Below, in pieces: positions 30,238-54,173 of a stretch of 64,000 nucleotides of DNA. Origin of the DNA: an uncultured Clostridia bacterium. GTDB taxonomy: Bacteria; Bacillota; Clostridia; Christensenellales; Borkfalkiaceae. The stretch covers positions 62,001 through 126,000 of the forward strand of contig CALVPT010000002.1 in the NCBI GenBank assembly GCA_944354125.1. Direction: 5' to 3'. The notes beneath the pieces are model-generated. The model did not search any database. It saw only the letters and a program-made list of their open reading frames with translations, and was not told where the DNA came from. The translations under genes were made by a program, and so were the position numbers. The first letter of the stretch is position 1, and the number at the start of each line of letters is the position of its first letter.

Positions 30238-31692
30238 TTATGCGAGCACGTTTATGTTTTCTATTTCGGGGTCCTCGGGACCTGTCATTGAACAGCCCTT
30301 GGCCTTGGCGTATTCGATATACTGAATAATCTCGCCCGTCACCCTTTCGCCGGGGGCGAGGATGGGAATTCCCGGGGGATAGCACATTATGAACTCGCTG
30401 CATACGCAGCCTATGCTGTCCTTCAGCGGCACGCTCTTTTTGTTGGCATAGAACGCCTGCTGGGGGCTTATTACGACCTCGGGCGCGAGATATTCCTGAC
30501 TTAAGAGGCCGTAGCTGTCCTTCTGGTACCTTCTGCGGATTTCGGCAAGCGCGCTTACAAGCCTTTCGAGTTCCTGCATTCTGTCGCCTATCGAGAGATA
30601 TGCAAGTATGTTGCCTATGTCGCCGAACTCTATCTGAATGTCGTATTCGTCCCTGAGAAGGTCGTATACCTCAATGCCTGCAAGTCCTATGTCGCGCGTG
30701 TGCACGCTGAGCTTGGTGGAGTCGAAATCGAATATGGAATCGCCATTTATGAGCTCCCTGCCGAACGCATAATAGCCGCCGACGGCGTTTATCTCCTCCC
30801 TTGCGTAGTTTGCCATCTCGACGACTCTCTTGAAGACCTGCCTGCCCTTAAGGGCGAGGTTGCGCCTGCTTATGTCAAGGCTGGACATCAGAAGATAGCT
30901 GCCCGAAGTCGTCTGGGTGAGGTTTATGATCTGGCGGACGTAGCCGCTGTTTATGTCCGGGCCCGTGAGGAGCAGGCTGGACTGCGTAAGACTTCCGCCG
31001 CTCTTGTGCATGGATACGGCCGCCATGTCGGCGCCCGCAGCCATGGCGGAGACGGGCATGTTTTCGCCGAAATAGAAGTGCGTGCCGTGCGCCTCGTCCG
31101 CAAGGCAGTACATGCCTGCGCGGTGAGCCATGCCGACTATGGCTTTAAGGTCGCTGCATATGCCGTAGTATGTGGGATTGTTGACGAGGACGGCGACGGC
31201 GTCTGGGTGCGCGGCGATTGCCTTTGCGACCTGCTCCCTCTTCATGCCGAGGGATATGCCGAGCTTGACGTCTACTTCGGGATTGACATATACGGGAATG
31301 GCGCCGCAGAGTACGAGCGCGTTGATAACGCTCCTGTGGACGTTTCTGGGCAGAATTATCTTGTCACCCCTCTTGCAGACCGAGAGTATCATGCTCTGCA
31401 CGGCGCTCGTCGTGCCGCCTACCATAAGAAAGGCGTGGGCGGCGCCGAAAGCCTCGGCGGCGAGCTCCTCCGCCTCCCTTATGACCGATACGGGATGACA
31501 GAGGTTGTCCAGCGGCTTCATTGAGTTGACGTCTATGGATACGCACTGTTCGCCGAGGAATGCCGTAAGTTCGGGGTTGCCCCTGCCGCGCTTATGCCCG
31601 GGGACGTCGAAGGGCACTACCCTCATTTCCCTGAACATCTGCAGCGCCTCGTATATGGGCGCTCTGCTCTGATTCAATATTTTGCTCTCCAC
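30238..31692 (-). CDS. speA: PLP-dependent arginine (Orn/Lys/Arg) decarboxylase
   Basis: Fold-type I PLP decarboxylase, most likely making agmatine from arginine because an agmatinase follows. About 484 residues. Early motif VVPFDVPGHKRGRGNPEL; PLP site DEAHGTHFYFGE and the Schiff-base lysine in VSMHKSGGSLTQSS. A frame from ATG 31743 is open, but it has no ribosome binding site and its first codons form a terminator hairpin. I therefore prefer GTG at 31692 with GAGG upstream, or TTG at 31677. It heads the polyamine operon behind a long leader. Lysine or ornithine as substrate cannot be excluded. Confidence 0.87.
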   Translation of the reverse strand: MESKILNQSRAPIYEALQMFREMRVVPFDVPGHKRGRGNPELTAFLGEQCVSIDVNSMKPLDNLCHPVSVIREAEELAAEAFGAAHAFLMVGGTTSAVQSMILSVCKRGDKIILPRNVHRSVINALVLCGAIPVYVNPEVDVKLGISLGMKREQVAKAIAAHPDAVAVLVNNPTYYGICSDLKAIVGMAHRAGMYCLADEAHGTHFYFGENMPVSAMAAGADMAAVSMHKSGGSLTQSSLLLTGPDINSGYVRQIINLTQTTSGSYLLMSSLDISRRNLALKGRQVFKRVVEMANYAREEINAVGGYYAFGRELINGDSIFDFDSTKLSVHTRDIGLAGIEVYDLLRDEYDIQIEFGDIGNILAYLSIGDRMQELERLVSALAEIRRRYQKDSYGLLSQEYLAPEVVISPQQAFYANKKSVPLKDSIGCVCSEFIMCYPPGIPILAPGERVTGEIIQYIEYAKAKGCSMTGPEDPEIENINVLA

Positions 31693-31707
31693 CTTCTGTA
31701 CCTCACG

Positions 31708-31741
31708 AAAAAAGCGCAAGCTGCATAAACACAACTTGCGC
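31708..31741 (-). terminator. Terminator hairpin in the leader of the polyamine operon
   Basis: On the minus strand GCGCAAG/CTTGCGC (31741-31735 with 31720-31714) is followed directly by six T (31713-31708), just before the ribosome binding site of speA. Its place at the end of a long leader suggests transcription attenuation. Confidence 0.75.
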
Positions 31742-32077
31742 ATAAAAAAATCACATTCCTGTCCGTATCGGCGGATAACTCAGGCCGACGACGCAGAGAA
31801 GACCTCCGCGGATAATAACGTCTTGAATGGATTGGCATACAGAGTCTATATTTGCAAACAATTTTACTACTCTTATTGACCGTTTCACAAGTTTGCGCGT
31901 CTACGCATTTCGGTTATAAAGTAACCAACTTATAAAATTTGAGCTTTTAACTCAATCAATAAGGCGGAAAACCGCCTATCGGCAGCGGACCCGGCTGTCC
32001 GTATGGCCTCGACTTTAATTACTTAAAGTGGTCCTTTGATAATTGCTTGGAAGACTCTATGCAATAGAAGTTATCCG
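31742..32077 (-). ncRNA. Structured leader of the polyamine operon, candidate riboswitch or attenuator
   Basis: About 335 nt run from the promoter start to the terminator hairpin, with no gene. Long-range pairing closes it: AGTTATCCG (32069-32077) is the exact complement of CGGATAACT (31772-31780). Inside that, AGACTCTATGC (32052-32062) pairs with 31835-31847 with only a two-base bulge. Local hairpins include AGGCGG/CCGCCT, TTGAG/CTCAA and ACTTTAA/TTAAAGT. The stretch ATACGGACAG occurs twice. It does not show the conserved motifs I know for SAM, lysine, T-box, TPP, cobalamin or guanidine-I leaders. The ligand is unknown; a polyamine, arginine or SAM would fit the genes. Confidence 0.6.
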
Positions 32078-52049: not shown

Positions 52050-52484
52050 ATGCGCCCGATAGGCCGAACGGCATTCACGCTATTTATGTTTACGGCATTC
52101 GCCCTGCTGATTGCCCTGCTTGTCGTTCTGCCGCAAAGGCTTGCGTTCCGCGGCGCGGAGCAATACACCTTTTTTACGGGCAACACCTCCTCCGACTGCA
52201 GAATAGTTACGACAGATTGCAAGGACGCGCCATTGATAAGGCTGACGCTTGACAACGTATGCGGCGAGAGCGCGACATACCGGAATCTGGACATAGATAA
52301 ATTTTTGCAGTCGGTAAACGGCGAAGTGCTCTTTACCGAAACCCTTTCGGACAGCACCAACTACTACTGCCGTGCAGACCTGCCCTACTCCGTAGCCTTT
52401 TACGGACAGACGGTCAACCTGCACATATGCGTCAAGGAGAGCGGCGTAACCGTGGCATCGCCTATAATTTTCGGCGGCTATTAA
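52050..52484 (+). CDS. Exported or membrane-anchored hypothetical protein
   Basis: 144 residues; the N terminus MRPIGRTAFTLFMFTAFALL is one membrane helix or uncleaved signal (about 8-28), followed by an extracytoplasmic beta-rich domain with four cysteines (DCRIVTTDC, VCGES, YYCRADLPY). Not recognised. It lies 108 bases upstream of the SpoIIQ-like gene on the same strand. Confidence 0.65.
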   Translation: MRPIGRTAFTLFMFTAFALLIALLVVLPQRLAFRGAEQYTFFTGNTSSDCRIVTTDCKDAPLIRLTLDNVCGESATYRNLDIDKFLQSVNGEVLFTETLSDSTNYYCRADLPYSVAFYGQTVNLHICVKESGVTVASPIIFGGY

Positions 52485-52592: not shown

Positions 52593-53282
52593 ATGAACGA
52601 ACAAAAAAGGATGACAAGAAAGAAACTGCTGACAAGAGCGCTGATTATTGCAGCGTGCCTTATGGTCATTGCCGCCGTAACCGTGACGTGCGTATTTGCG
52701 GCAAACGACTGGGGCAGAAACTTTTCTACCGTCGACAAGGACGACAACACCCAGATTCAGAACCCCGACGACGACAAGGACGATGACGACCAGACGGGCG
52801 GAGACGATCAGACGGGCGGAGACAACGACGACGACCAGTCGGACGACGATACTCCCACCGCCACCGAAACGACCTTTGCCCTGCCCGTGAGCGACATCGA
52901 CATTGTGACGGGCTACGTATTCTGCAAGGACGTCACGCTCGGACACTATCACTTCCACAGCGGCCTTGACCTGGCGGCAGATGCTGGAACGGAGGTCGTA
53001 TCCTGCCTGGACGGCACAGTTGAAAGCATTGTGGTAGGCGACAGGCTCAACGGCACTACCGTGACCATATCGCACGACAACGGGCTTAAGACGGTATACT
53101 CCTTCATAGACGCCGCAGAAGGGCTTGAGGCAGGTCAGAGCGTAGAGCGCGGCGAGGTGATTGGCACCATTGCCGAGGCGAACGGCGCAGAAATGGCGCT
53201 CGGCCCCCACCTTCACTTTGCCGTATATGACGACGGCGAGCTGGCAAACCCCGAAGATTACCTTGAAATAGCCAAAAAATAA
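52593..53282 (+). CDS. M23 (LytM) domain protein, SpoIIQ-like
   Basis: 229 residues: a short cytoplasmic start, one membrane helix (about 15-37), an Asp-rich linker with a DDQTGGDDQTGGD repeat (55-90), and a LytM domain. The metal residues appear complete: HFHSGLDLAADAG (HxxxD) and GPHLHFAVYDDGE (HxH). The layout FALPVSD...GLDLAAD...GYVF-like start and NGLKTVYSFIDA resemble SpoIIQ, the forespore half of the SpoIIQ-SpoIIIAH channel. The Bacillus protein lost a zinc ligand; clostridial ones keep it. A general cell-wall endopeptidase is the alternative. Confidence 0.75.
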   Translation: MNEQKRMTRKKLLTRALIIAACLMVIAAVTVTCVFAANDWGRNFSTVDKDDNTQIQNPDDDKDDDDQTGGDDQTGGDNDDDQSDDDTPTATETTFALPVSDIDIVTGYVFCKDVTLGHYHFHSGLDLAADAGTEVVSCLDGTVESIVVGDRLNGTTVTISHDNGLKTVYSFIDAAEGLEAGQSVERGEVIGTIAEANGAEMALGPHLHFAVYDDGELANPEDYLEIAKK

Positions 53283-53308
53283 CCCTTCATATTCCTCATT
53301 CCCCCACA

Positions 53309-53347
53309 TTTCCGCAGGCGAGCATACTTGCCTGCGGAAATTTTTTT
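53309..53347 (+). terminator. Terminator after the SpoIIQ-like gene
   Basis: An 11-bp stem TTTCCGCAGGC/GCCTGCGGAAA with ten-base loop and a seven-T run. Confidence 0.88.
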
Positions 53348-53458: not shown

Positions 53459-53546
53459 CTTTAAATTCACATTATTTATCGGCATTATCATATAGTTATG
53501 TTAATGGCAAACAAATTCAGCATTTATAAAAATTTTAATTTTGTTA

Positions 53547-53575
53547 TTGACTGACACAATCGCAGATGATATACT
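53547..53575 (+). promoter_or_regulatory. Promoter of the small-peptide cassette
   Basis: TTGACT (53547-53552), 17-base spacer, TATACT (53570-53575). The 85-base leader can form TCGGG/CCCGA (53586-53601) and TCAGG/CCTGA (53621-53639) hairpins before the first ribosome site. Confidence 0.8.
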
Positions 53576-53666
53576 ACAGGCGAAATCGGGAAAGGACCCG
53601 AGAAAAATTAAAAGACAACGTCAGGGTGATACGACCTGATTTGAAGATAAAAAGGAGGTCGATATA

Positions 53667-53765
53667 ATGGATATGTTATATGAAAGGCTCCCCGGTCTCG
53701 AAGAGAGAAACGAAATTTTCGGGGTCAGCCCCCTTTCTTACGTAGTTCTTGACTGCGCAAGATAA
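53667..53765 (+). CDS. Small peptide A, 32 residues
   Basis: Reads MDMLYERLPGLEE, then GVSPLSYVVLDCAR at the C terminus. An AAGGAGG site stands eight bases before the ATG. It aligns without gaps over all 32 residues with peptide C (54007-54105): LYE at 4-6, LP at 8-9, L at 11, GVSPL at 19-23 and YV at 25-26 are identical. The one cysteine (30) is not shared. No homologue is known to me. The pattern of an acidic N half, a GVSPL motif and a hydrophobic end would suit a signalling or modified-peptide precursor, but this is inference. Confidence 0.7.
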   Translation: MDMLYERLPGLEERNEIFGVSPLSYVVLDCAR

Positions 53766-53821
53766 TTACAAAAGCACAAACAAGGCGAAAATATATAAAA
53801 CAAATAAGGAGAGGTAATGTT

Positions 53822-53926
53822 ATGTACAGTTTATTCAAAAACTTTTTAGCTTCGATGAATATGGCAACCTGGACCGTACAGGGTTCTGCGAGCAAACGCC
53901 TTTCGAAGTGGTCTGAAATCGACTGA
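53822..53926 (+). CDS. Small peptide B, 34 residues
   Basis: Starts MYSLFKNFLASMNMATW and ends RLSKWSEID; amphipathic and basic in the middle (ASKRLSKW), with no cysteine. AAGGAGAGG lies eight bases before the ATG. Unrelated in sequence to peptides A and C but placed between them on the same strand, without a terminator between. The frame continues for 21 codons after the TGA to a TAA near 53990, which is probably chance. Function unknown; a membrane-active or partner peptide is possible. Confidence 0.6.
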   Translation: MYSLFKNFLASMNMATWTVQGSASKRLSKWSEID

Positions 53927-54006
53927 TTCATCAGCATGCACAGACACGCCCGTAAGGGCGCAACTATGCTCAGCAAAAAAACAATGTAAAAAAAGGAGGA
54001 GCTGTT

Positions 54007-54105
54007 ATGACGGATTTATACGAAAGTTTGCCTGAACTGGATAGCGATAAAAATGCGGTCGGCGTATCACCCCTCGCATATGTATTGTTTTCCCTGGGCA
54101 AATAA
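54007..54105 (+). CDS. Small peptide C, 32 residues, paralogue of peptide A
   Basis: Reads MTDLYESLPELDSD and ends GVSPLAYVLFSLGK. An AAAGGAGGAG site stands before the ATG. Fourteen of 32 positions match peptide A with no gap, and both are exactly 32 codons plus stop, which is strong evidence that both are real genes made by duplication. A strong terminator 31 bases further on closes the cassette. Confidence 0.7.
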   Translation: MTDLYESLPELDSDKNAVGVSPLAYVLFSLGK

Positions 54106-54135
54106 CCTATGACAAAGAGCTATGATTTAAGGCTA

Positions 54136-54173
54136 TGCGCCGCGGCTTGAACGAGCCGCGGCGCAATTTTTTT
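54136..54173 (+). terminator. Terminator of the peptide cassette
   Basis: A perfect 12-bp stem TGCGCCGCGGCT/AGCCGCGGCGCA, six-base loop and a seven-T run. Confidence 0.9.

Follow-up and report, generated by a model that had tools for sequence, protein, structure and literature searches.

A conserved double-operator control region ahead of unrelated microprotein genes in a genus of uncultured gut Clostridia

Three open reading frames of 32, 34 and 32 codons lie between a promoter and an intrinsic terminator in DNA from an uncultured Clostridia bacterium. The locus raises the question of whether such short frames are genes at all and, if they are, what controls them and what their products do. 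The original prediction had described these frames together with their promoter and terminator, and every one of these elements was found where it had been placed. The window denotes the whole 64,000-nucleotide stretch analysed; its genus is taken as Candidatus Coproplasma because the records bearing the same promoter carry that name, and this genus presumably belongs to the GTDB family Borkfalkiaceae. The features of the locus, in window coordinates, are as follows.

52593-53282, plus strand: M23 peptidase gene, SpoIIQ-like (Peptidase_M23 match; the SpoIIQ match is weak, below the NCBIfam cutoff)
53466-53471, plus strand: TTCACA/TTAACA half-site, a possible third operator half, conserved in the alignment (consensus AaTTaACAtaaaTTA, some 42 bp 5' of the second operator)
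53499-53513, unstranded: upstream operator TGTTA-N5-(T/A)AACA (TGTTAATGGCAAACA), from alignment and pattern search
53514-53541, plus strand: A/T-tract region between the operators, UP-element-like, with conserved AAAAtTTTT columns
53542-53556, unstranded: operator TGTTA-TTGAC-T(A/G)ACA over the -35 box, from alignment and pattern search
53547-53575, plus strand: sigma-A promoter TTGACT-N17-TATACT with an extended -10 (TG), from the sequence and the genus-wide pattern
53586-53601, plus strand: leader hairpin TCGGG-AAAGGA-CCCGA, just 3' of the predicted start site
53621-53639, plus strand: second leader hairpin TCAGG..CCTGA, read from the sequence and similar in the leaders of the closest species (L143, L034)
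53667-53765, plus strand: ORF A, 32 aa (MDMLYERLPGLEERNEIFGVSPLSYVVLDCAR), ATG start, AAGGAG-type site, A/C family
53822-53926, plus strand: ORF B, 34 aa (MYSLFKNFLASMNMATWTVQGSASKRLSKWSEID), ATG start, AAGGAG-type site, its own narrow family
54007-54105, plus strand: ORF C, 32 aa (MTDLYESLPELDSDKNAVGVSPLAYVLFSLGK), ATG start, AAGGAG-type site, A/C family, C-terminal Cys lost in its clade
54136-54165, plus strand: intrinsic terminator, a 13-bp stem followed by a T-run

The three small genes and their relatives

The alignment of ORFs A and C runs gap-free through all 32 residues, 14 of which are identical. Their first relatives were found by tblastn throughout the genus, and a profile built from 35 members detects the A/C family in 72 of 93 genomes of Candidatus Coproplasma, at one to five copies each and with E-values down to 1e-19, which places the paralogy reported in the original prediction beyond chance. 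From 70 locus stretches, a few of them overlapping, 115 members were read, nearly all with an ATG start and a purine-rich Shine-Dalgarno site ahead of it. The family consensus is M-x-I-Y-E-x-L-N-E-L-D-E..G-V-S-P-L-S-Y-V-x-L-[ND]-C-A-R, and its most conserved stretch is the C-terminal part, which is kept across some 70 species. A Cys lies within the last 6 residues in 106 of the 110 members of the promoter set, and 95 of the 110 end in Arg. The near-invariant Cys is absent from ORF C of the window and from its orthologues in L034 and L203, these proteins ending in FSLGK, FNMGR and FTMGR.

Outside the genus, a profile search of 396 genomes of the order gave no A/C match of meaningful significance, only short and marginal ones, and none of the eight marginal matches checked was a Shine-Dalgarno-led relative. 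Neither A nor B nor C belongs to a Pfam, PHROGs or PADLOC family, in agreement with the earlier reading of the locus; the peptides give weak sub-threshold matches in these databases and nothing significant in the PDB. With respect to Pfam, PHROGs, PADLOC and the PDB, A/C is an orphan microprotein family, apparently restricted to the genus in the searches made. A search of Rfam over the cassette returned sub-threshold matches only, on the terminator and nearby sequence.

Purifying selection is evident in each of the three frames. Between the species of the window and those with the two closest cassettes, ORF A has dN of 0.07-0.09 against dS of 0.59-0.90 (dN/dS about 0.1), and ORF C has dN of 0.08-0.15 against dS of 0.36-0.59 (dN/dS about 0.15-0.3). 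Among moderately diverged A/C members the pooled pN/pS is 0.215, with pN below pS in 202 of 202 pairs. ORF B, which had been regarded as unrelated to the other two, indeed forms a separate and narrower family that is found in four species; it is also under selection, with dN of 0.20-0.24 against dS ranging from 0.92 to saturation (dN/dS about 0.2 or less, three species), and in one of the four (G018, L193) a B gene comes first after the same type of promoter. Judged by the distribution of homologues and the dN/dS and pN/pS values, the three ORFs are protein-coding genes under selection. The claim that they are real, selected peptides is therefore strongly supported by the genus-wide family and by purifying selection, and the two outcomes that had been named as speaking against it, a lack of homologues and a lack of purifying selection, were both looked for, with homologues and purifying selection being found.

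The A/C proteins carry a net charge with a median of -4 and a range of -9 to -1, which comes mainly from their N-terminal half, and B, at +2, is the only peptide of the window that is not acidic. Maximum 19-residue hydropathy is 0.44-0.71 for A, B and C and peaks at 1.14 in the A/C family, in which no transmembrane segment is found. AlphaFold models A/C as two short helices with modest confidence (pLDDT 72, pTM 0.32). Leaderless bacteriocins, as in the four-peptide operon of aureocin A70, are of similar length (30-31 aa) and likewise stand in tandem (PMC6131525). The listed multi- and two-peptide leaderless bacteriocins are, however, cationic at +4 to +7, and genes for immunity and export accompany those that have been studied (PMC6131525); no such gene lies near the cassettes. 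Because A/C is acidic and nothing adjacent could give immunity or export, the bacteriocin-like identity allowed for in the original prediction is highly improbable.

The control region and the genes that follow it

The control region is conserved over about 90 bp. Eighty-two sites aligned at the -35 box have in common a TTAACA/TTCACA half-site, TGTTA-N5-TAACA, A/T tracts, TGTTA-TTGAC-TAACA and TGnTATACT, with the upstream palindrome at an identical offset in 71 of them. The spacing between the operators is fixed at 43 bp, or about four helical turns, and the double operator with this spacing occurs in 81 of 93 genus genomes, compared with none in the reversed control. The core promoter pattern is present in 80 of the 93, with one site in the window's own genome and essentially no matches in the reversed control. 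Exact promoter matches number 77 among 84,980 species genomes, and all but one are apparently in Candidatus Coproplasma, the records including Candidatus Coproplasma avicola, stercoripullorum, excrementipullorum, excrementavium and stercoravium. The single exception, in Candidatus Caccocola (L268), is not followed by a small ORF and was judged to be due to chance.

An origin from mobile elements was rejected, as viral contigs contained no promoter match and phages and plasmids no peptide match. The same searches bear on type I toxin-antitoxin or abortive-infection toxins, a reading that would suit genes which are small, multi-copy, arranged in tandem and apparently under tight operator control. 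Besides the missing phage, plasmid and viral-contig matches, it is contradicted by the lack of a PADLOC match, of a transmembrane helix (19-residue hydropathy maximum 1.1) and of a conserved antisense promoter, since a reverse promoter scoring at least 10/12 occurs in only 3 of 91 transcripts. The toxin set once suggested is accordingly very unlikely.

Hairpins are a regular feature of the 5' leader. Across 92 leaders, the initial 30 nt of each predicted transcript fold with a mean MFE of -6.7 kcal/mol, compared with -2.5 for shuffled sequences, and 76% of leaders but 18% of shuffles form a stem of 5 bp or longer. The stem sequences vary among species; it is the structure that is conserved. 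RNAalifold, applied to a MAFFT alignment of the leaders, returned no consensus structure, probably because the stems vary in both sequence and position, and the hairpins were therefore scored one by one against shuffles. In Firmicutes, a 5' hairpin shields mRNA, and these hairpins may do the same.

Microprotein genes follow 91 of 92 promoter sites, the exception being the chance match in another genus. Within 190 nt of 84 of the 92 sites, an ORF of 17-60 aa opens with an ATG that has a strong Shine-Dalgarno site; for random positions drawn from the same loci the figure is 2.25%. Of the 188 small ORFs collected downstream of the promoter, 110 belong to the A/C family. The other 78, some of which are chance ORFs given the permissive collection step, include by our own grouping some 15-20 convincing and mutually unrelated families, such as MIYELFDDIKDC...FINAFLRTM, MYDFENLDNIEMME...FASMLMF, MFFTKLFGNMF...RFYRAFANM, MKFIQWLRYINSLL... 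and MKINFEKLSDYEERTDCLFPYFSLFLNSARQ. The MKINFEKLSDYEERTDCLFPYFSLFLNSARQ family, which may be a remote relative of A/C, takes the place of a recognisable A/C member beside the M23 gene in three genomes. Many of the other families have a hydrophobic start, a charged middle and a more hydrophobic end.

The M23 peptidase gene, which has its own terminator (53308-53341), indicates where the cassette usually sits on the chromosome: the distance from this gene to the start of the cassette downstream is about 300-500 nt in most genomes, and in three (G055, G450, G452) this site holds no cassette. The gene on the 3' side varies, and in the loci examined more closely it is often convergent, with a GntR-type N-terminus and a MocR-like length. 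Neighbours of cassettes comprise the M23 peptidase, CorA, a Schlafen/AlbA-like protein and MocR/GntR or LacI regulators. Seven loci (L181, L182, L184, L185, L188, L189, L192) have secondary cassettes, which belong to two peptide families, immediately 3' of a conserved LacI-type regulator gene; the promoter of that gene, read in six of the seven, carries GTGCATTTG motifs, often repeated. That no modification enzyme or exporter adjoins the genes, as originally observed for this locus, extends to cassettes at the M23 site and at the secondary loci, near which none was recognised.

Two further observations concern the surroundings. Positions 52050-52484 encode a protein of 144 aa whose N-terminus is hydrophobic and which matches nothing in Pfam or NCBIfam; throughout the genus it is syntenic with the M23 gene. 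At 31979-32034 on the minus strand, a match to Rfam RF02440 (SpF59/ldcC RNA, 67.7 bits) lies upstream of an Orn/Lys/Arg-decarboxylase-like gene (30238-31743, minus strand); this is a streptococcal RNA family, here in a distant Clostridia genus, and it is possibly a cis element of that decarboxylase.

The operon is almost certainly real and regulated. Beyond this, there is about an even chance that it represents an exchangeable cassette, a conserved repressor-controlled slot into which unrelated microproteins of 20-45 residues have been swapped in evolution, so that the control region and not the protein defines the system. The earlier account had included neither the wider regulon nor the conservation of promoter, leader and operators. 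A conserved promoter can also find microprotein families that protein searches fail to connect.

A candidate regulator

A scan of several genomes for the exact operator led to a DeoR-family gene (P0001), the product of which matches Pfam HTH_DeoR and DeoRC and has an orthologue in 26 of 26 genomes tested. In 20 of the 26, TGTTA-N5-T[A/C]ACA stands just 5' of the Shine-Dalgarno site of deoR. Spacers of N4, N6, N7 and N8 occur at none of the 26 deoR promoters and N3 at two, and shuffles average 0.03. Because the regulator gene and the cassette promoter carry the same operator, as is expected of a DeoR-type regulon, P0001 is put forward with moderate confidence as the cassette's predicted repressor.

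The DeoR gene is also present in the cassette-free genomes G055, G450 and G452, and therefore it either acts on further targets or is not what regulates the cassette. It falls just short of an even chance that another factor reads TGTTA-N5-TAACA, which would leave the account of the microproteins unchanged. In addition to the genomes with deoR and no cassette, an identical N5 site at an unrelated locus common to two species favours such a factor; on the other side, when N5 sites were compared between two genomes, that of the DeoR gene was the only one situated in a transcription-factor promoter in both. The unrelated site, TGTTATGACGTAACA, is found in the window's own genome (L319/L378, C2:149216) and in G473 (L379, C4:61281), between glycosyltransferase-like and LUD-like genes, and is possibly another target of the same regulator. 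In G028 and G473, TGTTACATAGTAACA/TGTTACTATGTAACA (L318, L333) lie just past the likely -10 of a pyruvate:ferredoxin-oxidoreductase-like gene, a possible metabolic link.

Two other regulators were considered. The LacI-type protein encoded beside the secondary cassettes was rejected, as it has GTGCATTTG and no TGTTA-N5-TAACA in its own promoter, and Rex was set aside over the spacer of its site. The sites of both Rex and E. coli DeoR have spacers of 6 bp rather than 5, which counts against a DeoR-type reading of the operator as well; the E. coli DeoR half-sites are TGTTA..TAACA.

Most orphan microproteins lack a functional handle; here a shared operator joins some 15-20 unrelated families and names a candidate repressor, so that what induces these genes, and when they are expressed, can be addressed by direct experiment in a large genus of uncultured animal-gut bacteria.

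Possible functions and comparison with known systems

Modified-peptide (RiPP) precursors would have a helical N-terminal leader and a Cys-bearing C-terminal core, with the enzyme encoded elsewhere in the genome. The tandem genes and the frequencies of the C-terminal Cys and Arg are compatible with this, and the near-invariant Cys-Ala-Arg end, odd for a plain binding peptide, could point to processing or modification. Nevertheless, conservation is higher in the core than in the leader, ORF C and its orthologues dispense with the Cys, the families under the same promoter have no leader in common, and no enzyme was recognised near any cassette (M23 and secondary loci, with Pfam run on part of the neighbours outside the window). 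Given the conserved C-terminal part and the lack of a shared leader or nearby enzyme, this option of the original prediction is quite unlikely.

Leaderless secreted peptides, either phenol-soluble-modulin-like or serving communication, would instead leave the cell through an exporter encoded elsewhere and act on neighbours or as a cell-density signal. The lack of a leader, the tandem paralogues, the operator over the -35 box and the hydrophobic C-terminal parts are in keeping with secretion, and peptide sets turn over from species to species; such fast turnover of unrelated families under one promoter may fit externally directed peptides too. A class of leaderless communication peptides (LCPs) is known in Firmicutes, but these are mostly of 8-10 residues and adjoin their RRNPP receptor (PMC10518010); no RRNPP-family receptor was identified beside the cassettes, which have no receptor or transporter in common. 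Furthermore, the A/C family is strongly acidic, and the signal would sit in the C-terminal part, a part that is conserved between species instead of being specific to each. Secretion, and with it the signalling role allowed for in the original prediction, is on balance rather unlikely.

The best-supported account, still a tentative one, is that of an operon with high output, held in check by a predicted DeoR-type repressor, whose leaderless microproteins most likely work inside the cell through binding to partner proteins. E. coli DeoR represses by way of multiple palindromic operators that cooperate, and sugar phosphates release SugR, a regulator of the DeoR type (PMC2222622). In the model proposed, the P0001 orthologue would bind both operators cooperatively, block RNA polymerase and repress its own gene, until a sugar phosphate or similar metabolite released it; strong expression would then follow from hairpin-protected mRNA and strong ribosome sites. 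More speculatively, the A/C peptides might be two-helix acidic mini-proteins that bind a conserved partner through their conserved C-terminal tail, GVSPLSYVxLxCAR, and the other families, B included, might bind other partners under the same signal. The genes encode short conserved proteins under selection and with dedicated regulation, as is characteristic of regulatory microproteins, and the logic might resemble that of SgrT or other such proteins, in the form of an exchangeable set.

The likeness to SgrT and comparable regulatory microproteins (PMC3901232) consists of a small protein proposed to be intracellular, sugar-phosphate-induced and target-binding. SgrT is unrelated to the cassette proteins in sequence and, unlike them, has its coding region within a regulatory RNA. 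Rgg-SHP and RopB-LCP (PMC10518010) are similar in their tiny leaderless or short ORFs and inverted-repeat promoters, whereas the cassette has no adjacent RRNPP receptor and encodes longer peptides with a C-terminus conserved across species. Aureocin A70 (PMC6131525) also consists of tandem leaderless peptides of about 31 residues, but A/C is acidic rather than cationic, and the cassette includes no immunity or exporter gene.

Several palindromes at one promoter and a DeoR-family protein are shared with E. coli DeoR (PMC2222622), cooperative binding being described in E. coli and proposed here. The cassette differs in its 5-bp instead of 6-bp spacer, its fixed 43-bp spacing and its microprotein targets, and the binding is predicted. 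Finally, catalogued orphan small proteins (GMSC, PMC11364881; sORFdb, PMC11796252) are likewise short, conserved, unannotated and lineage-restricted, with good ribosome sites; compared with those families, the present ones are set apart by an operator, promoter and leader common to many unrelated families, which would make them one regulon.
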